A stretch of 64,000 bases of DNA, taken from the NCBI GenBank assembly GCA_019055375.1, contig JAHQIW010000381.1, positions 1,087,815-1,151,814 of the forward strand. Direction: 5' to 3'. The DNA is from Parelaphostrongylus tenuis. Lineage: Eukaryota; Nematoda; Chromadorea; Rhabditida; Metastrongylidae. The notes beneath the pieces were generated by a model, which was given only the letters and a program-made list of their open reading frames with translations, was not told the origin of the DNA and searched no databases. Positions within the stretch are counted from its first letter, which is position 1, and every line of letters starts with the position of its first letter. The translations under genes were made by a program, and so were the position numbers. Shown one piece after another: positions 4,308 through 54,400 of the stretch.

Positions 4308-4521
4308 TTCAACCCTTTCGAGACCACGGACCCACGGCCTCTGCACCTCTAACTGGCAACTCCGGACGGCCTGCTCCACCTCCTCTGAATCCCTAACGCC
4401 AACGTGCTGCGTACAACAGTGGCACGCTGGGAGTTAGTCTTAGAAGAGGTGGAGCAGACCCTCCAAAGTTGCCGATTAGAGATCCAGAGGGCCGTAGATC
4501 CACGGTTCCGAAAGGGTTGAA
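4308..4521. repeat. MITE-like foldback, CCGTGGACC family, copy 1
   Basis: Terminal inverted repeat TTCAACCCTTTCG...CGAAAGGGTTGAA, with arms carrying GGACCCACGGCCTCTGCACC and its inverse. No coding capacity. Confidence 0.75.
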
Positions 4522-5059: not shown

Positions 5060-5480
5060 GACACCCAAGAGGAGCTATTGCTTTCAGACACAAGTATATT
5101 GAAATAAACGAAAGTCTTGCAATCATTTTCAAGCCACGCATGTCAGTGGTCTGTCAAACAGGGCTGACTTATAGAGCCCGATACACGTGTTTCGATTTGC
5201 GATCTCGTCAGTCGGGCAGTTACCCATTCTCGTCTTTTGCTAATCTCTGTGGGAGCTCCAGTCCCCACACTAAGAGTTAGCGATGACGAACGTTTTACAC
5301 TCTATGTCCAGTGAAAAACTCACCAAACACAGAGTGTTCTTTATGAGTCAGCCCTGCTTAAGGCTCTAAAAGTCAGCCCTGTTTGACAGACCACTGACAT
5401 GCGTGGCTCAAAAATGATTGCAAGGCATATTGAAATTTGAGCTGTGGTCCTAAGAAAACACTCGAAACGAAAGTTGAACG
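5060..5480. repeat. Foldback of two opposed units of the CACGTGTATCGG ribozyme repeat family
   Basis: The left part (5,100-5,310) is a minus-strand unit with a hammerhead and the GGAGCTCCAGTCCCCACAC block. The right part (5,345-5,475) is a plus-strand unit with the ATTGAAATTTGAGCTGTGGT arm. The two share an inverted 'gtcagtggtctgtcaaacag' segment. Confidence 0.7.
5176..5217 (-). ncRNA. Hammerhead ribozyme motif, best-preserved copy
   Basis: On the minus strand: perfect 6-bp stem I GCCCGA/TCGGGC, CTGACGA, stem II GAT/ATC with a CGCAA loop, GAAA, stem III ACA-CG-TGT, cleavage site GTA. Every invariant base and all three helices are intact. It lies 1.4 kb past the mog-1 stop codon on the same strand. 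Confidence 0.8.
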
Positions 5481-6361
5481 AAAGTCGTCGTGAATGCTTC
5501 AGTTCGGTCACTACAAACTTATCACATCGTATTGAAATGATGCCTCAACGTCTCATTCGTTTGATCTATCTGAGTACCGACATTTGATTTGTGTCTGCTG
5601 GTTTTATAGTCAAAATATTTCCACAACAGGACTCTAAATGCAACTTTACAGATAGCCTAGTAGTGTGTGAAGTAATCCTTATTCTAAACAGATTAGGGCT
5701 GAAATATAATTATGAAAATTTCTAAAAAAAAAAACTTACTACTCATAAGCCGTGGAAATATATAGAGGACCAGTGACTGTGTGTCGTGATGGTTACACTG
5801 GCAAAGAAATAGGGAACTCTCACTATCATGAACGCGAGCTGTTGCAGGACAATTGCCAATTTGTACGCGAACTCTCGATGGTCGTGGGAGAAAGTTCTCT
5901 GAATTGGCAATGGAAGATCAAAAGCACATAAATCTTTAGTAAAAAAAAACATCGACCAATCGTTGTCTAACGGGTACGTTATGCTGGGTTGCAAACTATC
6001 TTCTTCGTAATCAGAAAAAAACTGGAATATTCTGAGCTAATAGTCTGGAAAGAAGTTCCAAAAATTGGGTTAACTAACCCAAGACAGAGAAGATTCGCGT
6101 ACAAACAAGACAAAAATTTAGTCGATCTGTGTGTTCCAAGAGGAGTCCAATCCGTTGCAACAGTTCAGGAGGTAGTAGTTCCATCTTAAATTGTACCAAA
6201 TACAACCATACCTAACGAAAGAATATATTGAAGCTGCAAAGATACACAAATCAATGGATTGGATTTACAACAAAAAAATGCGCAGATAAACACAAAATCA
6301 AAAAGTAAAGGTGGCAATCAACCGCCAGATAGTTCAAGAGCGATATACAGCTTGATTGACT
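5481..6361. other. Region downstream of mog-1; no gene seen
   Basis: A 66-codon plus-strand frame at 5,989-6,189 and an 83-codon minus-strand frame at 5,743-5,994 overlap head to head. Neither looks like a known protein. Confidence 0.45.
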
Positions 6362-6611: not shown

Positions 6612-19756
<13,145 letters not shown>

Positions 19757-20623: not shown

Positions 20624-23600
20624 TCAATGATGCCGACGCTGACTTCTTCGTGGCATTGTGTTGTAGGTGTTGTCTCCACCTTCCATGGTACGTGACCGAG
20701 ATCGTTCAGCGCTCGATCGGCGACGCGACGATACCTTCAAAAATTAGACGATATGATCTATATAAATCCTTTGTTTCTTCCGCTGGGCATTTTCGAGGTG
20801 TGAATAATAGCAATCATTGAATATCAGTGATGCAGTACAATAATACGGTGTAGGAATTGAGCACATAGCGCATGTGGCGCAGTGGTTAGAGGTGCCCTGC
20901 GTCGCACGCGAGGTCAATAGTTCGATCTCGCGCTCGTGGCTCACCAAGCCATCCATCCCTCCGGGGTCGGTAAATTGGTACCAAACAGGTCTCAGACTTG
21001 TCTGGGAGGATAAGCAGCACTGACTCGGTTCAGCGGGAGGCCTCCGCGAGTCATTATAGATGCCAGATATGCATTCAATCACCTCAAAACGAAGTTAAAA
21101 ATTGAAGTCGAATGCATGGCGCATCCCTCAGGGATTGATCAACGCCGAGAGTTTTTTTTTAATGCAGCACAAACATACAATGATAGCCCAGTGACTAACG
21201 CTTCGGCGAAGCTCGCTTTCTTCACAGCCTGGAAAGGTCAAATTGACCCGCAAATCATCCAGTCAAAAACCTCCATAACCACAGCAGAAAACGTAAGAAA
21301 CGAATTTACGAATTCGTAACAAAATTTGTCTTTTTACGTTTTCTGTTGAAGTTATGGAGCTTTTTGACCGAATGTTTTGAGAAAAAGTTCGACCTTTGCA
21401 GGCTCTGAAAAAGGCGAGTCTCGCCGAAACTTTAGTCACTGGACTATTATTGCATTGTTTGTGCTGCATTATCAAGCTGTATTATTATTGTAGTGCATCA
21501 CGGATATTCAATAAATACTATTATTAACACCTCAAAACTGCTCAAGAGAAGAAACTGCTGATTTATTTCAAATATGCTGCGGTTAATCTATAATTGATCT
21601 TGGGGATAGCTTTCTTTTGGGCAGTGGTATGATGTTCTGAGTGCCAAGCTAAACAGTCGACCTCAGGCGGAAGTTGAACCCGCGTTTTACTCGCTCGTGT
21701 TGCGACTACACCAGCGAGACCACCGCTTCGCTATCACTCTTTCTCAGAGTAACCCCATTAGTTGTCAACAACGAACCCTTAGAGGCGTTTGGTTGGTTGA
21801 GCAGTCAAACGCACTATACCCAATCGGACTGACAGTTACTGCATATGTATAATCTGCACAAATCCTTCATTTTGCTGCTTTTTCAGCTGTGGTATGATAA
21901 TATCAAAGAAAAGGTTCTAATAAAGCGGTGGCATTGGTGGTAGCGGTAGGCGCCGCCGGTATCGTTGAAACACTGGTTTGACTCTCGCCTGTGATCGAAT
22001 GCTTTGCATACCACGCAACATTTTTAGAGGATATACTCATCTTCAAAACCGACTATTTATCAACTCATCATGTTCAACAGTTTCAGAGGCTTTCTTAAAT
22101 AGGCCAAAACAAATTACTATACTATAATTTATTCGATCACCTAAAGTTTTAGGCGATTCCTCAGAGCCTGGAAAGATCAGGTAGTCTTCAACCCAATCAG
22201 CCAACTTCGATCTCTTCAAGAGAAAAAAACTGTTCAGCGATTTTCAAACCTTTTCTGATGAAATACGGAGGTGTTTTGCTGACTGGATTACAAACGACCC
22301 GATCATCAACCCTTCTGGAACCGTGCACCCAACCCTCTACGTCTCTAACTCCAGCACGTTTCATCCAATAATGGTGTTTAACCCTCAGATGTCATTGGTA
22401 GACACAGCACGCTGGAGATAGACGCGACACGCTGCGGTTAGAGAAGCAGGGCGTTGGGTCGATGGTCCCGAAAGGGCTAAGAGCTCTGAAGGAGACGAAG
22501 CTGTCATGACGTCAGCTGTTCAGATAGTTCATTTATAGCTACTTCGTGTTTCGACCAATCAAGAAAGACTAAGTAAACTCAATCGAAAACTCTGCGTTTG
22601 AAACCACAAAACCTCTTCGCTGTCAGAATGATGGTCGTCAGTGTCGCTCGGGCTCTCCACAATCTCCTCAACTTGACGACGTTGTCGATAATCTTCCTCA
22701 GTTTCATTGATAACGAGGTTACTCTGTGACCTGGAAAATCGGAGAAAGTATAGAAATCATCACGACAGAGTTCCTTCTGTAGCTATCTACATTATTTTTC
22801 AGTCCAAGATTTTTCGCAAGAAGACGTCGCGCATTACGAAAGAGCTCATGGAGGATCAAACATGGACCCCAGACAATTGTGCTGGACTCGATCTCAGAGG
22901 AAGCAGGTGAGATTGATGTGTGTGCTTCTTTGTCTCTGCTGGGCTGAATTGACTTTTACATCTTATAACCTTCATATTCAAACATAAGGGCTCAGTCGCT
23001 GTGCTTGTATATGAGCCAAATTTATCCAGAATGCCGTTTCAGCCAAAAACTTGCAAACGGGTCACTGAGGACCAAGTATGGTATACGGTTGGGATTCGCT
23101 TTAATAATGTGAGCCATATGTATTCCGAATAAAAATTTACGTTGTCTTCGACGAGCTACTCGTGGCTATCCTCACATCTAAATCCCTAAAAATGAAAAGC
23201 CTCCCATGAAGAAGTTTAACTTTCTCGTTTCCTTTCAGCAGATGGGGTCCACTGACCGCCAAGTATGATTATCGAATGGAAATGAACTTTTTCAATACTC
23301 GCTTAGGTCAACTGACGAATGACAGTTATTACAGGTAACATGAATATGTATGGGATCATGTATATCTCTGCCAATGAGTGGATATATCAGGACCGCGACA
23401 TCGTTTGCGATTTCCATTTTATCGACGGTCTTCAATCCTAGTTTTAAACATCCAATATAGTGTGTGAGAATGTTCAAAGCCTTCTCGAAATTGCTACGTC
23501 AGAGCCATACGCACGTCTCGCTGGTGTCGCCCGCTTATCACTGGCCCACGCCCCACACTGAACCCCAGTTTATAGCAGGGATGAGCACACGCTATTGACG

Positions 23601-26600
23601 GTGATAGCTCATGATATTATGTCACCACCATTTATTTCAGTCGATGGTATACTGTCGATATCGAAGAATGGTGGTAACACAATAATCACAGGCTCTAACC
23701 ATAACATCTACTCCTCATTCTTGCTAAAAATTACTGATCAGTGTGGGCCGCTGATGAAGCGGGCGACACCGCCGAAGCGTACGTATGGCTCTAAAAACCT
23801 CGAAAAGGCTTCAAACGTTCTCATAAACTATAGTGAATGCTTGCGACCATAATTCCACTATAGGATGACAGCTTCTAGCATCCGCGGTAATGACCCACTA
23901 TAGTCAACTCGAAAAAAGCGGTTCTTCTTCTGATCTTATTCCTTTTGAGCTGAAGGAAAGAAAAATGAAGGCTAGGTATTACCTTTGGAGCTTGTTGACC
24001 AGCTGGGCTTGTCCGCGCAAAGCAGCTTCAGCCACGATATCACGAGCACACAACAGGCTACGACTGCCGAGACGAACAAGCTGAAACAAACTGTGTTTAA
24101 CAAAGAACAAAAAAGGAGAACACAGCTTTTTAGAAAAGACCTCAGAAACCAAACTTTGTTCAAAAATTGGAGAAATCTATGGTTTCAAACGACTACTGAA
24201 AGTCTGGTGCAAAGTCATTCACAAACTCAGCCGAAGAAATGTGAACCCGAAGTAAAACGTGACCTTATCTTTTCAGCTACAGTACACTAACAAGGTCTTT
24301 TTACGTGCACTATTATGTCATGCACTGGGATTTCCAAGATTTAAGATATCAAATGACTACTTGAAGTCAAGGAGATAGGAGAATAGAGTAAAAGGTCCAC
24401 TCGGTTCCAAAAGGGTTAGAATAAGTGGGCTTCACATTAGCATTCTATGTTCTCAGTCGTATGATCCTACAACGTACAGGAATAACTTTCAACGAAACAT
24501 ACTTGATTATAGCTTTCTGACTTCGCCTGCTCTAGCATAGCATCGATCTCTTGTTCATGCTTACAAAGAGTTGGATGAATCCACTAAAATGAAAACTCTA
24601 TTAGATCTAATAAGTCATTCCCCAAAACTTGCCCATACACATGTGAAAAAATAGTACTTTGTGAGAACATACCTTATTTTGAGTGCCTTATTAAGACCAC
24701 GCTCAAATTTCAATAGATCCTTTCATTACTATTTGAGCCATCTTGTCTGTGACCTGGTGAGGGCTCTTGTACAGCCCGATACACGTGTTTCGCCTTTACA
24801 GACTCGTCAGTGGGGCAGAACCCGTCGTCTTTCGATATTTTTGAAGTCAGTTCTCTCGGGAGCTCCGCTCCCTTACAGGAATTCATAGAAGACGAACGTT
24901 TGACAGACCACAGACAAGTTGGCTCAGATAATAATGAAAGGATCTATTAAAATTTGTAAAACAATTGGGCATTTTTGCTTGACAGCTATGAATAGTTGAA
25001 AAATCGAAAGAGAAATGTAGCCACGAACGAATTTTTGTTAACCCTTTCGGCACCGTGGACCTACGGCCCCTGAATCTCTCACTCTGGATGGTCTGCTCCA
25101 CCTCCTTTGCATCCTTAACCCCCAGCGGTGCTGCGTCTAACAATGGCACGCCGTTGTGTTTAGCAATGGGTCGCTCCTGCGCCTAACAATGGCATGCTGA
25201 GGGCTAGAGATGCGAAGGGGGTGGCCCAAACCGTCCAGAGTTGTCAGTTAAGAAATGCAGAGGTTGTGGGTCACGGTTCCGAAAGGGTTGAGGAACCAGA
25301 ACAAGTACAATAAACAAAAAGTCCAAACCTTTCTATACAAAATCGACGCTCCTTTCGTCCATGGACTCAGCAACCAAAAGATGAAAACAATCTTCAACTG
25401 ATAGTAGAAAGGAAACCAAAACGATATGAAAATGTCGGCTAAAGTCTCCACAAAGGAATATAGAGCAAAAACAATCCAATACATCATCCATTTTACGTAT
25501 TCGCGAACGTCCTTCGTTCGAATAGCCTAAAAATGGGAACCGATGGAAAGAAGCAGTCGCAAAACTCAAATCATACTGAATGTACTCATAGATGAATGGT
25601 ATTAAGAAAAGCATTTACCTATGAGAATTAAGTGGTGAGCATAAACCCGGCCTCAGGTGGGAATCGAACCCGCGTTTCATCCTATCCGGGGACGCGTGCT
25701 CTACAACTACACCACCGAGGCACGTTTACCCGACCACTCGTTCTTTAACATCTCTATGTTAGCTATCAGCTCACCTACCTCCAACAGATTTAGTCGGGTA
25801 TGCGATTTCGCTCTATAAATCCAGTTGAGCCGACAGCCATTTAGATGTAATACTCCGAGATTCCAGTATATTAACTGCTTTTTTTCGCAGTGTTATAATG
25901 TTACATATATACCTATGAGAACTGAGTGATGAGCGAAAACACGGCCTCAAGCGAGAATCGAATTCGCATTTCATCCATACCTGATAGCTAAAATAGCGAT
26001 TGTTGAAGAATGAGAGGTTAAGCAAACGTGCCTCTGTGGTGTAGTGGTAGCAGCACGCGTCCTCGGTATGGATGAAACGCGGGTTCGATTCTAGCCTGAG
26101 GCCGTGCTTTTGCTCACCACTCAGTTCTCTTAGATATATAAAGGATAAAGGATAAAGCTCTCGGCGTTGATCAATCCCTGAGGGATGCGCCATGCATTCG
26201 ACTTCAATTTTTAACTTCGTTTGAGGTGATTGAATGCACATCTGGCCTTTTACAATGACTCGCGGTGGCCTCCCGCTGAACCGAGTCAGTGCTGCTTATC
26301 CTCCCAGACAAATCTGAGACCTGTCTGGTACCAATTTACCGACCCCGGAGGGATGGATGGCTTGGTGAGCCATGAGCGCGAGATCGAACCATTGACCTTG
26401 TGTGCGACGCAGAGCACCTCTAACCACTGCGCCACACGCGCTCTTCTTAGATATATGTAACATTAATCACTGCGGAAGTAAAAATATTGAAATTTCGGAG
26501 AAATACATTCATTTATTCATTTTTTAGAGGATGGAGGGGCATGGCCGAGTGACTAGTGATGCTCGGCGTGACTTAGAGCACAATTGTCGCGATAAAATTG

Positions 26601-28009
26601 GGAAAAAATCAGACTTTAACGTTAGATTAGTAAAAAAAAATCGCCCTCATAATTATCACTACTGGTCAACATCAGCAATCAGCTGCCGAAAAAACTGTAA
26701 ACCCCAACGGGACCGTGGACCCATGGTCTGTGGGTCTCTAACCTTCAACATATTGCGTCTAACAATGGCAGACGCTATTAGACGCCATTGTTAGAAGCAA
26801 CACGTTGAAATTCGGAGACGCACAGGCCATGGGTCGACGGTCCTGTGAGGGTCAATGTCTTTGTTACATGAGACTTGCGCGAGATTGGTACTTCCTCTGC
26901 GAAATTGATGGCTAACGTCTCCGTGACTTCGCCTCTTTCAGAGCCGTTAAATTACTTGGTTTCAAACGAAACTCTTTCTATTTAACCGCTTCAAGCGGTG
27001 TTATGATGTTACAACTAGATACCCATTGATGTAGAGCGATGTGCAAAACTTTCGCGTCAGGCGGGACTAGAACTAGACTAAAATGGGCGTCAGTAGTGTA
27101 ACGGATAGAGCACGCATTCCCGGAAAGAGTGAGGTGCGGGTTCTAGTCCCGCCTGACGCAAAAGTTTTGCACATCGCTCTACATCAATGGGTATCTACTT
27201 GGTTTTACTTTTTTTATTTGTTGATCAAGCGCGTAACGAGAGGCTGGTAACGAAAATTTTATTCGGCTAACGTTTCGACGCGTTTCATTTTCTTCAGAGG
27301 TGACGATGTGAGCCGATCGTCCACTCTCCTCGTCCTCATTGTAGATCTTCGCCTCATTCTCAATCTTCTTCGCTCGACTCGGATCATTTTTAATCTAATT
27401 TCTAGTCATTTAAGTAGATTGGCGGCTTTAAGGAAGGCGAAATCGCCAAAACATTAGCCGTTGTTTCTGAAGATATCTACTTTGCACAAGCTTTTTATAC
27501 ATAGAAAAAAACAGTTCGCGAGGCAGTTTTCATTTTTCACGCCGATGTTTTTCAAGAGTCGACCCTCTGATTTGAAAACACGTAATAATAAACACCTAGA
27601 CACCTGAACGCCCCGCCTTCACTGACAGTGCGAGCGTCTGCTTTCTTCTCTGGAGTCCTGAGGTAAGCCTAGCCGAGGCTTCCTTAGGTCGTCACCACAT
27701 TAGAGCAGTCGCCGGCCCTTGTTGATCAGAGGGAGATTACCACCTTGCGACTATAGCTACCGAGACGACGGTCATTCCTGGTACGGTTTCTTCTTTTAGA
27801 TGGGCCTTTGTAGTGGAAACGTCGGAATCCTCAGCTTGGGTGGCCCTGCTGAGGGCTTGAACCCCTGCTGTAGTTTGCAATCCAACACTCAAGAACCACC
27901 TGCGCTCCCAAGTAGATAAATAAACATAAATTCTAACCTTATAACTTTTGTAAGCCGGATACAGCGTCCCAGCAGTTAATGTGATGATACGAGAGAGTAC
28001 CACCGACAT
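20624..28009 (-). CDS. REEP1-4-type ER membrane-shaping protein (TB2/DP1/HVA22 family), 6 exons, about 225 aa
   Basis: REEP1-4 proteins sit as hairpins in tubular ER membrane, shape it and link it to microtubules; human REEP1 is a spastic paraplegia gene. Exons in reading order: 28009-27938, 25526-25329, 24583-24503, 24080-23983, 22730-22613, 20734-20624, all phases closing. The protein opens [20 protein letters not shown], then [18 protein letters not shown] and [18 protein letters not shown], the diagnostic TB2/DP1/HVA22 hydrophobic block, then [20 protein letters not shown], an amphipathic helix. The tail is acidic ([18 protein letters not shown]), then Ser/Arg-rich, ending RRSQRRHH. The start at 28009 gives the family's usual N-terminus; a TTG-initiated extension is not needed. 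The introns hold many repeats, including copies of one foldback family and hammerhead motifs. The last acceptor (TTTGAAG) and the exon-5 donor (GTTTTG) are atypical. Confidence 0.93.
20866..21151 (+). repeat. tRNA-derived SINE, family A
   Basis: The head GTGGCGCAGTGGTTAGAGG (box A-like) and AGTTCGATCTC (box B-like) are followed by a conserved tail (CACCAAGCCATCCATCCCTC, TTGGTACCA, ATTCAATCACCTC) ending in GGGATTGATCAACGC. About 285 bp. It lies in the REEP intron before the last exon. Confidence 0.75.
21150..21480. repeat. Foldback repeat with decayed hammerhead-like arms
   Basis: Arms AATGCAGCACAAACATACAA and TTGCATTGTTTGTGCTGCATT pair, as do CCAGTGACTAACGCTTCGGC and its inverse. Each arm holds a GGCGA...TCGCC hairpin followed by GAAAC or GAAGC, preceded by a damaged CTGAAGA. 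Lies in the REEP intron before the last exon. Confidence 0.6.
21600..22050. repeat. Inverted pair of family B tRNA-like repeats, in a REEP intron
   Basis: Minus-strand head at 21,660-21,725 (GAAGTTGAACCCGCGTTTTA). Plus-strand head at 21,935-22,045 (GGTGGTAGCGGTAGGCGCC, then GCATACCACGCAACATTTTT). Confidence 0.5.
22308..22480. repeat. MITE-like foldback, CCGTGGACC family, copy 2
   Basis: Inverted arms CAACCCTTCTGGAACCGT / GGTCCCGAAAGGGCT with CAGCACGCTGG-type centres. It lies in a REEP intron. Confidence 0.65.
23470..23845. repeat. Foldback of the GCGGGCGACACCGCC ribozyme repeat, in a REEP intron
   Basis: Inverted arms carry hammerhead-like sequences at 23,502 (minus, core mutated) and 23,745 (plus). 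The outer ends (TGCTACGTCAGAGCC and GGCTCTAAAAACCTCG) also pair. Confidence 0.65.
23745..23791 (+). ncRNA. Hammerhead-like motif in a REEP intron
   Basis: GGGCCG, CTGATGA (23751-23757), stem II GCGG/CCGC, GAAG in place of GAAA, a CG-TA-CG stem III, and stem I 3' strand TGGCTC that pairs through wobbles. A matching but more decayed copy on the minus strand at 23502-23547 forms the other arm. Confidence 0.45.
24690..24950. repeat. Copy of the CACGTGTATCGG ribozyme repeat family
   Basis: A minus-strand unit carries the hammerhead at 24,774 and the GGGAGCTCCGCTCCC block, followed by an opposed partial unit (gacagaccacagacaag). It lies between REEP exons 2 and 3. Confidence 0.65.
24774..24816 (-). 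ncRNA. Hammerhead ribozyme motif in a REEP intron, sense to the gene
   Basis: On the minus strand: stem I GCCCCA/TCGGGC (five of six pairs), CTGACGA, stem II GTC/GGC, GAAA, stem III ACA-CG-TGT, cleavage after A. All invariant core bases are present. It lies in the intron between REEP exons 2 and 3 and in the transcribed orientation, so it could cut the pre-mRNA intron. Confidence 0.65.
25038..25291. repeat. MITE-like foldback, CCGTGGACC family, copy 3
   Basis: TTAACCCTTTCGGCACCGTG at the left and CACGGTTCCGAAAGGGTTGA at the right. The right end lies just 37 bp from REEP exon 2. Confidence 0.75.
25885..26140. repeat. Foldback with a tRNA-like head, family B
   Basis: The right half has GTGGTGTAGTGGTAGCAGCA (box A-like) and GCGGGTTCGATTCTAGCC (box B-like). 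The left half is its inverse (CGGCCTCAAGCGAGAATCGA). A single minus-strand copy lies at 25,640-25,735. It looks like two tRNA-derived SINEs head to head. Confidence 0.65.
26150..26443 (-). repeat. tRNA-derived SINE, family A
   Basis: Reverse-strand copy of the 20.9 kb element, complete from GGCGTTGATCAATCCCTGAG to the box A region CACTGCGCCACACGCGC. Confidence 0.75.
26698..26853. repeat. MITE-like foldback, CCGTGGACC family, copy 4
   Basis: Arms GGGACCGTGGACCCATGG and CCATGGGTCGACGGTCC with the CTAACAATGGC centre seen in copy 3. It lies in REEP intron 1. Confidence 0.7.
27017..27196. repeat. Near-perfect hairpin around a tRNA-like head, family B
   Basis: Left arm 27,017-27,073 and right arm 27,140-27,196 are inverted copies over 57 bp with one mismatch. 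The loop and right arm hold CAGTAGTGTAACGGATAGAG and GCGGGTTCTAGTCCCGCC, which resemble pol III boxes A and B. It lies in REEP intron 1. The near identity of the arms implies a young element. Confidence 0.75.
27240..27480. repeat. Inverted pair with decayed hammerhead-like sequence
   Basis: The plus strand at 27,426-27,462 reads CGGCT, TTAAGGA, a GGC/GCC hairpin, AAAAC and AGCCG: a hammerhead with intact stem I and II but mutated core. The minus strand at 27,265-27,305 holds a CTGAAGA...GAAACGTTAGCCG copy. It lies in REEP intron 1. Confidence 0.45.
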
Positions 28010-28985: not shown

Positions 28986-30094
28986 TCCATCGAATGAGGG
29001 TGGGTTTTTCATTTGTCTCCTTGAACCATAGAGTACCGAAAATCGCCCCCAGGAGGACTATGGGGATCGGACATCAACCGGAACCGTACGGGAAACTGGC
29101 ACTTCGGAAATCGGACAGCAAATGGGAACTCCTCTTCAGTAACAGAACGGAAAGAAATCAATACAGAGAACCATTTTAGTATTTCGTTTGTGAGTAGATC
29201 AAATGCGTAGAAATCGATGATCTCAGTAGGAAAATGCCCTCATATGCGACAACTTCGGAGGGAAACTATCGATAACTCAGCGGTCACGTGAAGAGGAGAG
29301 CGCCAAGTTTCCCACTGCCATTAACCGCTATCTGGCCGCTCGGGGTCAGAAAATGGGTTAAGACAGAAGAGATACGAGCTATTTTCATTACATTTATCGT
29401 AATGTCTTTATTGATTGGCCAGCAGCCCGAGGCTGACGACAAAAAAACCTTCAGAGCCGATGGCGAGTGCGGGACTCCAAGGCCCTAACCTGTGACTGGG
29501 GTTTTGAAGAAAAGATGAGGGCTACGAAACCCTTGAAAAGCCGGAAAAGGTCTCTTTCTTATCAACCTCGGGTTAACGAAAAAGCGACGAAAATACTCTC
29601 GACTATTCGATGCCGAGAGGGAAAATCGATTTTCGAAATACATTTATTTTCATATCACTTTCGAATAACGCTCAAAGACTAGCAAACAGATCAGTAACAG
29701 ATCAGAAAAATCGATAATAGATCACAAATACGTCACCAGCGGGCGTCACGTGGGGTCTCGATATCGATCGAAGTGCGGAAAACCGCGTTGCAACCGATCG
29801 ATGAGGAAGTGTCGTCGTCGGCTGTCGCTCGTCGTTGACGATGAGGTGGAGTGACAAGTGAGCTCGTCCGGCCCACTGCAGACTACCACCTGATGGTCCT
29901 TCCCGTTTTTTTTCCGGGCCATAAGGTCCGATTTCTCGTTCGGTTTCTAAGCGAATCGATTCTTATCTCTGAGATTGAGGCTTTCACAGCGATAGTTTCG
30001 TCCAACTAGCGGTCAGAGTCGTTAAGCCAAACGCCAGTGCTCTTCTTCCTTTAACTTCTCTATGTTTTTTTTTCTCTCGTTTCGAGTGTTTTCT
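28986..30094. other. Upstream flank of REEP
   Basis: Somewhat richer in G/C than its surroundings (for example GTCACGTGGGGTCTCGATATCG near 29,747). No exon recognised; promoter function is only a guess. Confidence 0.35.
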
Positions 30095-30225
30095 TAAGAT
30101 CACAGTTCAAATTTCAATATGCCTGGTAATTATTTCTGAGGAAACACGTGTATGGGGCTCTCTAAGTCAGCCCTCTTTGATAGACCCTAACATGCCTGGC
30201 TTAAAAAGATTACCAGGCATTTTTC
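30095..30225 (+). repeat. Truncated copy of the same ribozyme repeat family
   Basis: The TTTCGAGTGTTTTCTTAAGA terminus, the CAATATGCC arm and a partial ACACGTGTATGGGGCTCT segment are present, but the CTGANGA half of the hammerhead is missing. Confidence 0.55.
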
Positions 30226-33839: not shown

Positions 33840-34020
33840 ATAGGATAATTCACTATTGCCAGCCAAGAGCAATCGAGAGAAGACTACCCGTTGGGTGATT
33901 TTAGCACCTAACGGCCCGTGTAAAACGACTTTCGGCGTTGGCCTGACGAGGTTGGGAGGCCGAAACACGTGTATTGCACTGTATACGTGCCATACAGATC
34001 TCATGAAAGGTTGAGAATAT
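33840..34020 (+). repeat. Diverged copy of the same ribozyme repeat family
   Basis: Holds the GCCAAGAGCAATCGAG block and the hammerhead at 33,937. Confidence 0.5.
33937..33978 (+). ncRNA. Hammerhead ribozyme motif with decayed stem I
   Basis: Core CTGACGA (33943-33949), stem II GGT/GCC, GAAA and stem III ACA-CG-TGT are intact, but the flanks no longer form stem I. It lies in a diverged copy of the same repeat (GCCAAGAGCAATCGAG at about 33,857). Confidence 0.5.
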
Positions 34021-40734: not shown

Positions 40735-40990
40735 AAAATACCAGCCGAAAGCAATCGAGTGCACGAAACTGCTCTCGAGTGATTTTCACTTGACAGCAGT
40801 GTAGTGTAAATCGTTCGCCGTCGGCTACTCTTAGTTTGGGGACTGGAGCACCCACCAGAGAGAGGATTGGCTAACGATACGAGGGTTCTGCCCGACTGAC
40901 GAGAGTGTCAAGGTCGAAACAAGTGTATCGGGATGTTCAAGAGCCCATCATCAGACCACATGACAAGTTGGCTCAGATAGCAATTATGAG
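40735..40990 (+). repeat. Near-full single unit of the same ribozyme repeat family
   Basis: Runs from the GAAAGCAATCGAGTG block through TTTGGGGACTGGAGCACCCA and the hammerhead at 40,890 to CACATGACAAGTTGGCTCAGA. Only one ribozyme is present. Confidence 0.65.
40890..40932 (+). ncRNA. Hammerhead ribozyme motif
   Basis: Stem I GCCCGA/TCGGGA (five of six pairs), core CTGACGA (40896-40902), GAAA (40916-40919), stem III ACA-AG-TGT, cleavage after A40927. Stem II is short and imperfect (GA...TC). It belongs to the same repeat family as the 42.7 kb pair. Confidence 0.65.
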
Positions 40991-42504
40991 ACAAATGCGA
41001 AGAGTTTTTCTATTGATAGTAGCCAATGATTAATTTTCGCGAGAAATTCGTGTGTTGTACGGAACCAATTTTCTATGTTTTCTCTTCATCTTGGAGATAT
41101 TTTGAAGCTATTTTCATTGTTGAGCATCATTTTAACGAAATGCATCTCTATTGGATTTGGGTGTAATCTAGTGGCTGAATTTGGTTTCCTTGGCTAGCTT
41201 CAAGTTTTCTTATGCAGTTTTGCGTATGAGAAAGTTATCACTAGAAAAAGCGAGTCTAAGACATTTCTGCCGCATTCGCTGTTGCCTCGAGTCTTCGCGT
41301 ATTGTTTGTTGAAAAAAAGGGAGAGACTTATCCTTTCTCATTAGTAATTAGTGCTTAGAATAGATAGACATCTTACATTGAGCGTTAAGCAGAAATGCAA
41401 ATGAAAGTGATGGAGTGAGGGAGCGACAACGCTGAGCGCTGGCGGTGCAATGGAAAAGTTGTCGAGAAAAAATCTGCTATGATTATATTTTAGTAAAGAA
41501 AATGCTATTGATAGAACGATAACGAGTAATTGACAAAAAGCGTTCGACGTTAATCCTAGCAATGGGTCTTGAATCCGACCACGTTTATGCATTGTTCAAG
41601 TCACTGAATGCTTATGTTCTCAATGCTTTTGGCTTCTTTTTTTTTTGTTGAAACGCACTCCATGAAAGGAATTTATTTATTGCGAAGGAATTGTGGATTG
41701 TCGCCAAGTAGAAAGCAGTGATACTTCCCAACAAGTAAATAAAGTAAGTAAATGAAGAATGAAGAAAGCAAGTGCACAGAAAAATATGGATGTGATGGCA
41801 ATTGTAGACTCAAACTTATTCTCACAGTTCTATTGTATTCCGGCCCATCATGAATTATCGGAGGCCAGCGACATCGAGTCTCACATAGGCGTGCGTTTTT
41901 GGCTTAAGCTCACAAAAATGCGGTGCGAAATCACGTGTAGCAGCGAGGCACTGATCTCTGCAACCTATTTTCGGATTTTCACATGGATTCATGACGCTGC
42001 GAGAGTTTTTACGCGCTAAGATTTCACTTTCCTATGCAAGGCTTGTTACTTCTAATTCAAAATCTACCCCTTCTGTGCCTGTAATCTGAATACTCCTAGT
42101 GCGATCTTCGATTTGAAAGTGCTTTCTTTTCGGATATAAGGAGGTCTGTCAGTTTTGACATTGTATTCGTATATGCACGCTTTACAAGAGAAGAGGTGAA
42201 TTGTTCCTAAAGTCATGCAGTCACCACCTCTACCGTTGGTCGTATCATGCAAATGTTCGTTTGGCAGAAACGGTCATAAAATCGTTTAACGTCGAAAGAC
42301 TCCATCACGTACGAGCACTACGTAGACGATCCAAGAACATTTGGGAACTCGTAAGATGGGCTACGATTTGTTTTAGCCACTTTAGGAGTAATAGGTATTT
42401 ATGAAATCAAGCTATTCTTTCTGTGGTTCCGCCTACATAACTGATGATAGGTATACTTGAACACTTGCAGACTTGAAGGACTGTAAAACAATAAAACAGT
42501 ATCT
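40991..42504. other. No gene seen
   Basis: Only short overlapping open frames on both strands. Confidence 0.45.
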
Positions 42505-42666
42505 TTCGTTTCGAGTGTTTTCTTAGGACCACAGCTCAATTATCAATATGCCAAATAATCATTTTTGAGCCACGCATGTCATGTAGTCTATAAGAAGGGT
42601 CGTTAACTCTTAGTTTGGGGACTGGAGCACCCACACAGGATTGGCAAAAGTCGAGAAAAGGTGGCT

Positions 42667-42709
42667 GCCCGACTGACGAGACTGCAAGGTCGAAACACGT
42701 GTATCGGAC
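42667..42709 (+). ncRNA. Hammerhead ribozyme motif, upstream copy of the tandem pair
   Basis: Stem I 5' strand GCCCGA (42667-42672), core CTGACGA (42673-42679), stem II GAC/GTC closed by a TGCAAG loop (42680-42691), GAAA (42692-42695), stem III ACA/TGT with a 2-nt loop, cleavage after A42703, and stem I 3' strand TCGGAC (one mismatch). All invariant core bases are present. The very short palindromic stem III is typical of Penelope/retrozyme hammerheads, which often act as dimers. Confidence 0.75.
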
Positions 42710-42994
42710 TCTATAAGTCAGCCAAATTTAACAGATCACATGACATGGGGGCTCAAAAATGATTCTTTGCATATTGAAATTTGAGCTGTGGTCTTAAGAA
42801 ATCACAGTATACTAGCCAAGAGCAATCGAGTGTACAACACTGCTTGTTCGGTGATGATTTTATCGAATATGGGGTGTAGAATGTTCGTTGTCGCTAACTG
42901 TTAATGTGGGCACTGGTGCACCCACAAAGGATTGGCAAAAGACGAGAAAGGGTAACTGCCCGGCTGACGAAACTGCAAAATCGAAACACGTGTA
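42704..42994 (+). mobile_element. 291-nt retrozyme-like unit bounded by two hammerhead motifs
   Basis: Two direct copies of a hammerhead-bearing sequence lie in tandem. The sequence before each ribozyme (about 42,610-42,666 and 42,890-42,957) is the same: a GGGNACTGG-GCACCCAC block, GGATTGGCAAAAG, then CGAGAAA. The predicted cleavage sites fall after 42,703 and 42,994, so cleavage of a transcript would free a 291-nt RNA. The unit contains the TTGAAATTTGAGCTGTGGTC arm and the GCCAAGAGCAATCGAG block found in other copies at 33.85 kb and 40.75 kb. Metazoan retrozymes have this tandem layout and size. The second ribozyme has a damaged stem II. Confidence 0.6.
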
Positions 42995-43000
42995 TCGGAC
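42958..43000 (+). ncRNA. Hammerhead ribozyme motif, downstream copy (stem II decayed)
   Basis: Core CTGACGA (42964-42970) and GAAA (42983-42986) are kept, with stem III ACA/TGT and stem I CCCGG/TCGG (a G-T wobble at the base). Stem II (AACTGCAAAATC) no longer pairs, so activity is doubtful. Confidence 0.55.
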
Positions 43001-44077
43001 TCTATAAAACAGTGAGTATTCGGAAGCAGCTGTTTACTGTGAGGTTGAATATTTATGCACCGAGTCGTATCTGCATTAGTTATGAGAGTGTTCGACTGAG
43101 AAGATTGCATATCAAATTGAATATTCCAGGCTCTGAACAAGAGAAGAGGCCGAAACGTTAGCCACCGAAACGAACTCTATTGTACTATTTTGTACGAAAT
43201 AAACTTGTTTTGACAATATCATGTTTGCTGAATAAAAGAGGTAAAGATTTATAAAACTTCGTGTTAATTCAAAATAAGGAGGGAATGTCAGTCATTCTAT
43301 TGCCGAGTTCCAAGGAGCAAAGAAGGAGCAAAGGTATTTCTGGCCAAAAAAGGCCGGTTGAAATTCAAAGGACAACTCAATTGTGTATAGACACTATAGC
43401 GTTCAAATGATCCGAGATGTCTTGAATACCAGTGTTACCAGTTTGAATAAAGCTTGTTTTACCAGTTTGTGTTCGGAACTGAAAATCCGTTCAACTCTAG
43501 ATATCTCTATCTACAACTTTATTTAGGCTAGATTTGATTACCCCATTGAGATGAAACTCTGATTTTTGTGTAGATGATGTCAAATACTTCCTTCACTTAT
43601 TTTGCACCATACTAGTAATTTTATCAAGTTAGTAATTTTTGATTGCATCCAGCTGGACAATATGGTGTAGCTGGACAATGTATCTTGAATTTATTAGAAA
43701 ACTACAGATCCTCTGGTTAACAAAAAATCATTGCTTGTTCTCGTGAAACAGCCTTCAATGTAAAATGTTGATGAGAACGTCGATTGTCGGTTTTTTTTAT
43801 GAACTAATACTAGAGATTTAGCATGTTAATAAAACCACATTTGTGTGCCGTGTGAAAAAACTAAACTACATCAGTGAAAAATGTCAATGTCCATTGATAC
43901 TGTGTATTTCCATGATAACTAAGTATTATTTTTGGTGACAGTACAAGTGCGGTCGCTTTCAGCTATACACTAATGCAAGCGTGTATGTCAGTATGTATCC
44001 TTGGAAGTGGCAAAAAAAAACTCCGTGAAAGAGGGTTCACCACATTAGGTCGATGAGCTGTCGAACGTTATGCTCAC

Positions 44078-51441: not shown

Positions 51442-54400
51442 TCAAGACTGGCCAATGATGCTGACGGTCGATGCAGGAGCACACGTACTTTGTCGCAAAC
51501 TGATATTCACGTCACGGAATAGTTGCATCTACAAAACAAACTTTGGTCATAGTCAGTAATTTCGAAAGGCAGCTGTGCCGAAATGCTTCCGAATACACAC
51601 CTGAAATATTCCAATGATTGTCGTTAAAAATCCGATAACATTTCCAAGAATGTCGGAAGCACCAAGACAAGACCATTCCTGAAATTTATGTGAGACCCTG
51701 CGAAACGCTGTTGCATAGCATATTGTAAAAAAAAGAGTGGGTAGCAAATAACGGCCTGTTCGTTACTCATACGATCTAACCTATTGGGTAGGTATGAAAT
51801 TTCCATTACTTTATCGTTTTTGTCAAATATTTTGCATGTATTTGGGTTTGCTTCATTCTATCCTTTAGAGCAGCTTCTTGTGATTAATTGATATATATCA
51901 TTTACACATTTGCTCTAAGATGAAATTGTTCTGAAAGCAAAAACGAGTGTTGATGCTACACGAGCCTCGTTTAGATTCAAGCGCTGCTGAGACTATCCAC
52001 CGAAAACGATGCTTTGCGTTTTCTGGTCCGCTCATTGCGTTGAGCAATGGTTGTTGTTGGAGCAAGGACAAACAGTCTAGTCGGAGGTCTGCTGTCGTCA
52101 ATTGGATGAGTTGAATCGACGTTTGGATCGCCACCTTCGAGCTCAAATTGTTTTCAACCATAATGAAAAGCCTCATCGTTCAGAATGACAAATGCAAAGA
52201 CTGAAGAACTTGGCTGGGATCGTGTTGACCACACGCCTTAATCTCCGAATCTGGCCCCCAGAGATTTTCACCTCTTCCGGTCGTTATAAACTTCTTGAAA
52301 GGAGAACGCTTTGAAAACATTAATGAGGTGGAAGCACTTGAACAATTTTTTGACTCAAAAGACAGCGAGTTTCACCGCCGCAGGATCATGAAATTGCCGG
52401 AAAAGTGGGAGGAATTGATTGAAATCAAAAGGGAATACCTTGATAAATCTCTTTTGTTTTCATTTGTTGAGAAAAGGAATAAACTAGTAGAAGAACGGAA
52501 AAGTTCAGAAAATTTCTTGCCAACAAAATATTTAGGCAATGGTTCGACTCCTCTCCAAATCTACCTAGCTTTTGATGTTTCACAGCAGTGAAATTGGCAA
52601 CCAGAGTTTTCTGGGATATGACCTTAGGTTCCAGGGAGTATCAACTTCATCAGCATTCAACGACATACGTACAAAGAATAAGAGTTCTCCAATAAGAGCA
52701 AACTTATGCTCAAAAAAGAAGTTCGAAGATCCTTGTGGATGGTGAGTGCAAGGGAATAAACCGAATATAAGTAGTGCTGGAATCTGCACAAAATAGCAGA
52801 TGTGATGTCGGGTCATGCAATATTAATAAAAAATAAACATTGATGAAGAGAACGATGGCGTGACAAAGGCAATCCAAAAACTCTTTAATTCAACTTCGCA
52901 CAAATCATTAGAATATCTGATAGATAAGTTATGGTACTTATATGTTTGGGGCGCTAAATTTTGAAGCTATTCTCACTCGCTGCACAGGAACTTCTAATAG
53001 AAGTGTTAGTAATAATTAGAAAGCTCAAATCTCTGGCTACAACTCAACGTTGCTGATTTTTCAAAAACTCTTTTATAACACTGTAGCATCCAAAATAAAT
53101 TTTTTTTTACATTCTTCTTTCGCCGTTTTTATCACACGTTTGAAAAGCTGATAGTACAAAAAGCATATCAGCTTATAAAGAATTTTTCGTACTATCAGAA
53201 CCTTACACTTAGGTAAAGTTTCCGTCGATAGGATGAAAAAATCCTGTTGAATAACAATATTTCGAAAACGATTGATCGTCCTGCCCCTGCCCCTCGTTCC
53301 GTGAGTTGGCCGGTAAACAAAGTCACTGGAAAGGTTCACAGCCGAATAAAGGTGAAGGAAAGTCACAGCAACGACCTGTTAGTGAGATGATCGCCTGATT
53401 TACTGCGTAGCTTGACAGTGATTTACCACACAATGCGTTCAAACGGCGGCAACCATTATTATTTTACTAAGGATTTTTTTCTTGATTTTTCACCGCGTCA
53501 ACAGAAACTCTGGATAGAAACGCATGAGTCTGATACTATGAAAAATTCTCTACACACCGATACGCTTTTCGTGCTTCTAGCGATTTATACTCGTAGTAAA
53601 AACGAAAGCCACAGACGAGTGAGAAGAAGAAATTTTATTCTAAATGCTTCACCGTTATGAAAAGGTGTTTTGAATAATCGGCAACGTAGAGTTGTAATCA
53701 GAGAATTGACCTTTCTAATTATTACTAGCACTCCTACAAAAATTTCTTGTCCAGTGAATGAGACCGGTTTGAAAATTTGTCGTCCTATGATATATAAGTA
53801 CCAAGTTATTTCCCCAGATCTCAATAGTGAAAATTTGGTCTGGACAGAACCTAAATCCCTGAACACTTCGCTCATGTCTATTTACTTCTTATTAGAGGAT
53901 GAACCACAAGGTTTCTTGTGAACCCAAAACACAAACTTCCATACTAATCAGAAAACACAGTTAACGCAAAAATTAAGAACGATTGTTCTTATACCGATGG
54001 TGGATCATGATTTCTTAGTTATATGCCGTTTTTGAAGTCATATTATTATTTTATTATTAATTTATTACTATTATTTTATTATTATTCTTGTCACGATTAT
54101 GGCTTCCTGTAAACCTACTTTATACAATATTCGAAGACGCCATATAACAAATGAGGTGAAGAACACGTAGTAGATCGGAGTCACCATAGATGTGTTGAAC
54201 ATATCGAGCGCTTTATTCAGATATACCTATGATTGAATGATAAGCCAAAACATTCTGCAGAAATGGCTTTGAAATCAAGAAATTCTGAATGATAACGGTA
54301 TCGTACCAGTTGTACGGAAACACAAGCGATGACAGATCCCAACCAGAAATAATGTAAGTATATTTTGTCAGTTGTTGATTTCCAGATATGGTTTCTTTTA

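Follow-up and report, generated by a model that had tools for sequence, protein, structure and literature searches.

The assembly analysed here carries a nematode retrozyme family whose usual two-armed copy is a head-to-head inverted dimer of an apparently non-coding, hammerhead-bearing unit, with the ribozymes facing outward. The anatomy of the insertions suggests that they were probably made by Penelope-type machinery priming off both target strands. The mirror-image pairs, each with one short and one long end, hint at the class of enzyme that mobilises animal retrozymes, and the interest lies in the family as a whole rather than in the decayed locus at 42.7 kb of the window (the entire 64-kb stretch of DNA that was analysed, the end of contig C292).

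The assembly searched has 5,105 contigs and a total length of 481.5 Mb. The host is a nematode, and a 22-mer that we take to be the SL1 spliced leader has 102 exact occurrences (reversed control, 0), most of them in SL1-like genes arrayed at intervals of about 568 bp (contig C3131, 160-24504). This array gave 36 Rfam matches, all under the cut-off, its divergent body reaching 47 of the 75 bits needed. The exact ribozyme core of the family, CTGACGA...CGAAACACGTGTATCGG, was found 4,548 times in the 481-Mb assembly (2,300 + 2,248), with no match to the reversed-pattern control. Tandem units elsewhere in the genome, expected in the preliminary description, were recovered as 263 exact core pairs with a gap of 280-310 (142 + 121; control, 0). 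A genome scan with the Rfam hammerhead model RF00163, in which 74 candidates were scored, yielded at least 31 matches, at least 20 of them above the cut-off; most of those inspected are members of another hammerhead family.

At 42.7 kb of the window, two direct copies, each ending in a hammerhead and 291 nt apart, had been reported, and this arrangement was confirmed. The copies at 42599-42716 and 42890-43007 are 87% identical at an offset of 291 nt. At a permissive threshold, RF00163 matched 42667-42709 with 31.9 bits (E 8.7e-6 in 1 kb, 5.5e-4 in the window) and 42958-43000 with 23.6 bits. Both fall under the gathering score of 34, at which a scan of the 64-kb window returned no hammerhead; the proposed Rfam check succeeded at the permissive threshold and failed at the gathering score. 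A relaxed hammerhead core pattern matched the window five times and 100 shuffles of it not once. A covariance model of the family, built from 62 ribozyme copies at loci outside the window, scored 69.6 bits at 42667-42709 and 57.0 bits at 42958-43000, both on the plus strand. Judged on sequence, a type I hammerhead with its core and stems is present, although both window motifs score under the Rfam gathering threshold. The upstream ribozyme has the full core and three stems attributed to it, and its motif is consistent with the predicted cut after the GTA at 42703. Free-energy folding of six single ribozyme copies was not unusual (z -1.05 to +1.00) and lent no support; the window unit folded with z -1.3 (21 of 200 shuffles), and the unit at locus L061 with z -3.9 (0 of 100 shuffles).

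The insertion at 42.7 kb spans about 42501-43003, longer than first reported, and lists no open frame of 120 aa or more. It begins with the post-cleavage segment in inverted orientation (42501-42589, minus strand; a long end of the class of about 118 nt), followed on the plus strand by a distal part of the unit terminating in hammerhead 1 (42599-42703) and by the 291-nt unit delimited by the predicted cuts (42704-42994). The element ends a few nucleotides beyond hammerhead 2. The sequence ATAAAACAGT flanks it at 42491-42500 and 43004-43013, a match that 18 of 4,000 random flanks equal; the first 4 nt of the right duplication overlap element sequence. In the model alignment, two stem II positions of hammerhead 2 are unpaired, and this ribozyme is probably inactive. 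Release of a 291-nt RNA had been predicted; the spacing of the predicted cuts agrees with it, but release from this locus is doubtful because of the two stem II mismatches in the second ribozyme. The spacing is itself unusual, since eight of nine tandem pairs measured lie 314-318 apart. The 42.7-kb copy is a decayed, end-truncated and atypical member of its family.

Across the whole window the family model found six copies at 38 to 70 bits (42667, 5176, 24774, 42958, 40890 and 33937), among them the copies previously placed at 5.2, 24.8, 40.8 and 33.9 kb. The 5.2-kb copy (5117-5476, minus strand; hammerhead 5176-5217, minus) has a short end of 66, a long end of 117 and a 10-bp duplication at 5107-5116 and 5477-5486. 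A copy of the second subfamily (r2) at 24674-24956 (minus strand; hammerhead 24774-24816, minus) has ends of 106 and 76, and no duplication was found around it. The copy at 40748-40991 (plus strand; hammerhead 40890-40933) is one-armed and also of the second subfamily, and the hammerhead at 33937-33979 (plus strand, 38.1 bits) is degenerate. An additional, previously unreported head-to-head copy at 30074-30223 (30.07-30.22 kb; plus strand) has an internal deletion, no intact hammerhead, ends of 115 and 73 and an imperfect flanking repeat. Next after the six copies came a weak match at 14257-14305 (20.5 bits), possibly a third hammerhead-like motif, situated between two direct repeats of 74-76 bp that lie 270 nt apart.

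The pairing of the ribozyme stems was examined in the 62 distinct copies. In stem II, A-U, U-A and G-C pairs interchange, as do C-G and U-A. Two-sided changes occupy 39 cells against 15.9 in shuffled data, and paired cells make up 92.5% against 88.2%, neither value being reached in 500 shuffles; the signal is lost when the partner is slid. Two of the five covariation measures were no better than shuffles (two-sided-change pairs, 2 versus 3.2; further types, 14 versus 13.7). Stem I keeps its pairing in these copies and showed no covariation. Conservation of the core is uninformative, because the copies were picked by a fixed core.

The architecture of the family was examined in 93 loci and the window; the other 16 of the 109 fetched loci were overlapping or duplicate stretches, members of the other hammerhead family, or L109. 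Most loci carry the unit on both strands, with ribozymes pointing outward and a post-cleavage segment (X) at either outer end. Both orientations are present in 81 of 108 groups before any splitting, 77 of them arranged minus then plus and four compound, with no plain inward pair. Among neighbouring ribozymes less than 700 nt apart in the pattern-drawn loci and the window, 31 pairs are minus-plus, five minus-minus, four plus-plus and three plus-minus. Over the whole genome, pairs of exact cores separated by 200-230 form 61 outward, head-to-head sites and one inward, tail-to-tail site. Splitting the groups at every plus followed by a minus gave 83 two-armed elements, whose layout is partly by construction because of that splitting; the unsplit figure is 77 of 81. 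The usual two-armed copy is thus a head-to-head inverted dimer, which the preliminary description had missed. Its retrozyme reading held for the host, the type I unit, the tandems, the dispersal and the duplications, and did not hold for the tandem as the usual layout.

The outer ends of these elements fall into two classes. Measured from the cut, the end point of X has a bimodal distribution, with most values at 54-77 or 108-131 in the first subfamily and at 48-77 or 96-119 in the second. One short end (about 70 nt) and one long end (about 115 nt) were found in 70 of the 79 two-armed elements with two measurable ends: all 23 elements from the discovery loci L010-L038, 44 of 52 from L039-L108, and three of four in the window. 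The rule was written down before L039-L108 were fetched, and the 88-nt limit between the classes was set after the distribution had been viewed. Given the marginal frequencies and treating elements as independent, a binomial calculation yields p of about 3e-7 in the discovery set and again in the set fetched later. Seven of the nine exceptions are short-short and two long-long; the exception in the window is the 42.5-kb copy, where the second end as measured reads through into the second unit.

Flanking duplications accompany about half of the elements. Flank repeats scored at least 9 in 40 of 78 elements, against 1.5% of 6,006 mismatched flank pairs, and at least 12 in 18 of 78, against 0.1% of mismatched pairs; the remaining 38 of 78 gave no convincing target-site duplication. 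The 30 perfect duplications vary in length (9 bp, 5; 10 bp, 7; 11 bp, 3; 12 bp, 9; 13 bp, 5; 14 bp, 1) and are AT-rich, with a GC content of 0.287 versus 0.407 for the fetched DNA. Ends bounded by perfect duplications measure 51-76 when short and 91-144 when long, most of the latter being 109-118. Inverted arms between flanking duplications could also describe a palindromic DNA element of the foldback or MITE type, moved through its terminal inverted repeats by a transposase and carrying its ribozymes incidentally. We consider this very improbable: the 9-14 bp spread of the perfect duplications rejects a transposase with a fixed duplication length, the outer ends are ragged and in two classes, the number of units per arm varies, and stem II of the ribozyme covaries.

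The centres of the elements point the same way. Among 53 first-subfamily elements, central junctions agree within 4 nt in three of 1,378 element pairs. Since junctions differ in nearly all elements, the palindrome was not copied as a unit, which also counts against a foldback or MITE, and a master palindrome copied whole was ruled out on the nearly always different junction coordinates. In 50 of 79 elements at least one arm contains two X segments or more; the template was therefore at times longer than the unit, or circular. Arms of six units occur on contig C290. Arm likeness in 33 elements was 0.808 within an element and 0.769 between elements (p 0.05). An arm's own partner was its best match in five of the 33, and a single RNA templating both arms is unsupported.

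Inverted chimeras are a known artefact. The longest arrays among those listed, six cores on the minus strand (7889-9488) followed by six on the plus strand (9975-11574) of contig C290, present identical six-unit arms, as seen from core positions, and could be one. It is extremely improbable that the palindromes in general arose in assembly or amplification, given that 40 of 78 elements have flanking duplications, that arms differ in sequence, and that the ends obey a rule.

A LINE enzyme could be an alternative source of duplications of 9-14 bp, which lie within the LINE range; PMC4918200 compares Nematostella repeats with 15-bp duplications to LINEs. A retrozyme mobilised by a LINE, twin priming on a single RNA having produced the inverted arm, nevertheless seems quite unlikely. 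With one linear RNA, simple twin priming does not produce a pair of arms each running from the 3' segment back through the ribozyme, and the ends lie at two fixed internal positions rather than at a 3' terminus.

Insertion by Penelope-type machinery can be set out as follows. The starting element would be a unit of about 316 nt closed by a type I hammerhead. By analogy with published retrozymes, the ribozymes would cleave transcripts of tandem units, and the units would then circularise. An enzyme, putatively Penelope-like, would make a staggered cut in the target, and both DNA ends would prime reverse transcription on the retrozyme RNA. Synthesis would begin within the post-cleavage segment, at about 68 nt for one arm and about 116 nt for the other, and would copy the ribozyme and then the unit, some arms extending beyond a single unit. 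Joining of the two cDNAs would follow centrally, at a new point each time. Inverted arms, short duplications and a tail confined to one end characterise Penelope-like elements in the literature; the nine of 79 elements that violate the end rule and the 38 of 78 without a clear duplication speak against this reading, as do the slight excess of likeness between arms within an element, the two covariation measures that shuffles matched, the lack of covariation in stem I and the absence of a sequence match to the one GIY-YIG 3' flank compared. We hold a more specific version tentatively, at a little under even chances: each insertion would be made anew by two reverse transcriptions, one per strand of a staggered break, on retrozyme RNA that is often circular or multimeric, the primers being forced to two start sites about 45 nt apart. 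The copies would thus record Penelope-type enzymes mobilising animal retrozymes, the one-sided tail marking the strand primed at each site.

Candidate enzymes are encoded in the same genome. GIY-YIG domains (PF01541) gave at least 150 matches (150 of 1,723 candidates scored) in open frames of up to 902 aa, and at least 20 minus-plus neighbour pairs within about 4 kb were seen in a list read by eye; these frames are putatively Penelope-like. One 3' flank of such a frame (L109) contains a minimal hammerhead-like motif. The window contains similar pieces at 43088-43169 (plus strand; motif 43133-43159), 21348-21430 and 21195-21279, so that a minimal motif of the Penelope type adjoins the retrozyme at 42.7 kb. 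BLAST of this flank, the sole one compared, gave no match to the retrozyme unit. It is unlikely that the copies are simply Penelope-like elements internally deleted down to their pLTRs, with no separate retrozyme lineage. Their terminal structure is that of a Penelope pLTR, but the retrozyme ribozyme has a stem III loop and a sequence unlike the minimal motif near the GIY-YIG frame, and tandem pairs of period 316 are frequent. A coding family with matching pLTRs may exist, because the comparison covered one GIY-YIG frame. This alternative departs from Penelope-type insertion of a retrozyme more by ancestry than by mechanism.

Other repeats and hammerhead-like motifs were observed alongside. 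A second hammerhead family (CTGATGAGTCC...GGACGAAACAGGCG), present in L001, L002 and L006-L008, includes matches above the RF00163 cut-off; it forms outward pairs in L002, L006 and L007 among seven loci inspected, with a 12-bp flanking repeat at L006 (by eye). In the window, either arm of the palindrome at 21160-21471 carries a hammerhead-like core of the minimal Penelope type (21197-21207, minus; 21423-21433, plus), with one core mismatch each. Palindromes at 11477-11721 and 23446-23842 have outward hammerhead-like motifs of other sequence (CTGATGAAGCGG...CCGCCGAAACGTA or close), and further self-inverse palindromes lie at 4308-4521 and 26701-26852. Three tRNA-family matches above the Rfam cut-off fall within repeats (25649-25721, 26030-26103 and 27087-27160), one of them inside the self-inverse stretch 27012-27201. 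Exon-like frames occupy 10324-16256 on the minus strand, of which 14881-15114 matches PRP16. A mariner-like reading of 52229-52591, made by eye, was dropped, as Pfam finds no family there or in five other frames.

The closest known systems are the metazoan non-LTR retrozymes defined in PMC7229834. As described there, their units are non-coding; the features in common are a unit of about 170-400 nt, tandem type I hammerheads, low GC, large target-site duplications and co-existence with Penelope-like elements. Tandem units of a few hundred nucleotides (the 263 pairs) and duplications longer than 4 bp are both found here. The nematode host, apparently non-coding type I unit, tandems, dispersal and duplications all accord with a metazoan retrozyme, and the interpretation in the preliminary description is partly supported. 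The difference lies in layout: PMC7229834 describes tandem copies, and its main text contains the terms "inverted", "head-to" and "orientation" 0 times, whereas the two-armed copies here are mostly head-to-head inverted dimers with one short and one long end. Penelope-like elements are named there as strong candidates for mobilising retrozymes, a proposal made in PMC7229834 and PMC8969392 from co-occurrence and shared hammerheads. With several thousand cores, an end rule, duplications and junctions that rarely recur, the present family adds positional evidence on the mobilising enzyme and opens the question to assays of reverse transcription in vitro.

Penelope-like elements with GIY-YIG domains share an inverted pLTR at one end, a one-sided tail on inverted ends, short duplications and AT-rich targets, and have their hammerhead in the pLTR (PMC3846280, PMC11167929). 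An inverted pLTR-like arm, a tail at one end and short duplications are likewise found here. According to PMC3846280, Penelope insertions have an inverted pLTR and duplications of 8-10 bp, and one of the inverted pLTRs may carry a 31-bp tail; self-priming on an antisense template is suggested there as the origin of head-to-head repeats. The junctions described here fit priming from both target ends instead, and the family offers an extensive natural archive of the origin of Penelope inverted repeats. In PMC11167929, a Penelope-type protein cleaves and extends both target strands, initiating at two neighbouring positions within the RNA, which delimit the tail. Start sites showed no difference between strands in that study, so its data do not predict the one-short-one-long rule. 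Unlike Penelope-like elements, the retrozyme unit has no open frame of 120 aa or more, a period of about 316 nt, a stem III loop and no match to L109; it is not classed among them because a reverse transcriptase and GIY-YIG frame is absent.

More distant systems differ in further respects. The minimal hammerheads of Penelope and Terminon elements share the type I family and the association with retroelements, and are described in PMC7761336 as being without helix III or loop-loop contacts. Plant LTR retrozymes (PMC4918200) are likewise non-autonomous and have a unit bounded by ribozymes, but they have type III hammerheads, LTRs and 4-bp duplications. The fixed duplication length and fixed ends of a DNA transposon or MITE contrast with the 9-14 bp and two ragged end classes found here. 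The main texts of PMC7229834, PMC7761336 and PMC4918200 do not contain the string "nematod", and none of the literature titles listed for retrozymes or hammerheads together with nematodes or Caenorhabditis concerned such an element. Relative to the texts compared, this is a retrozyme family in a new host group, the nematodes, with an insertion anatomy of the Penelope type.
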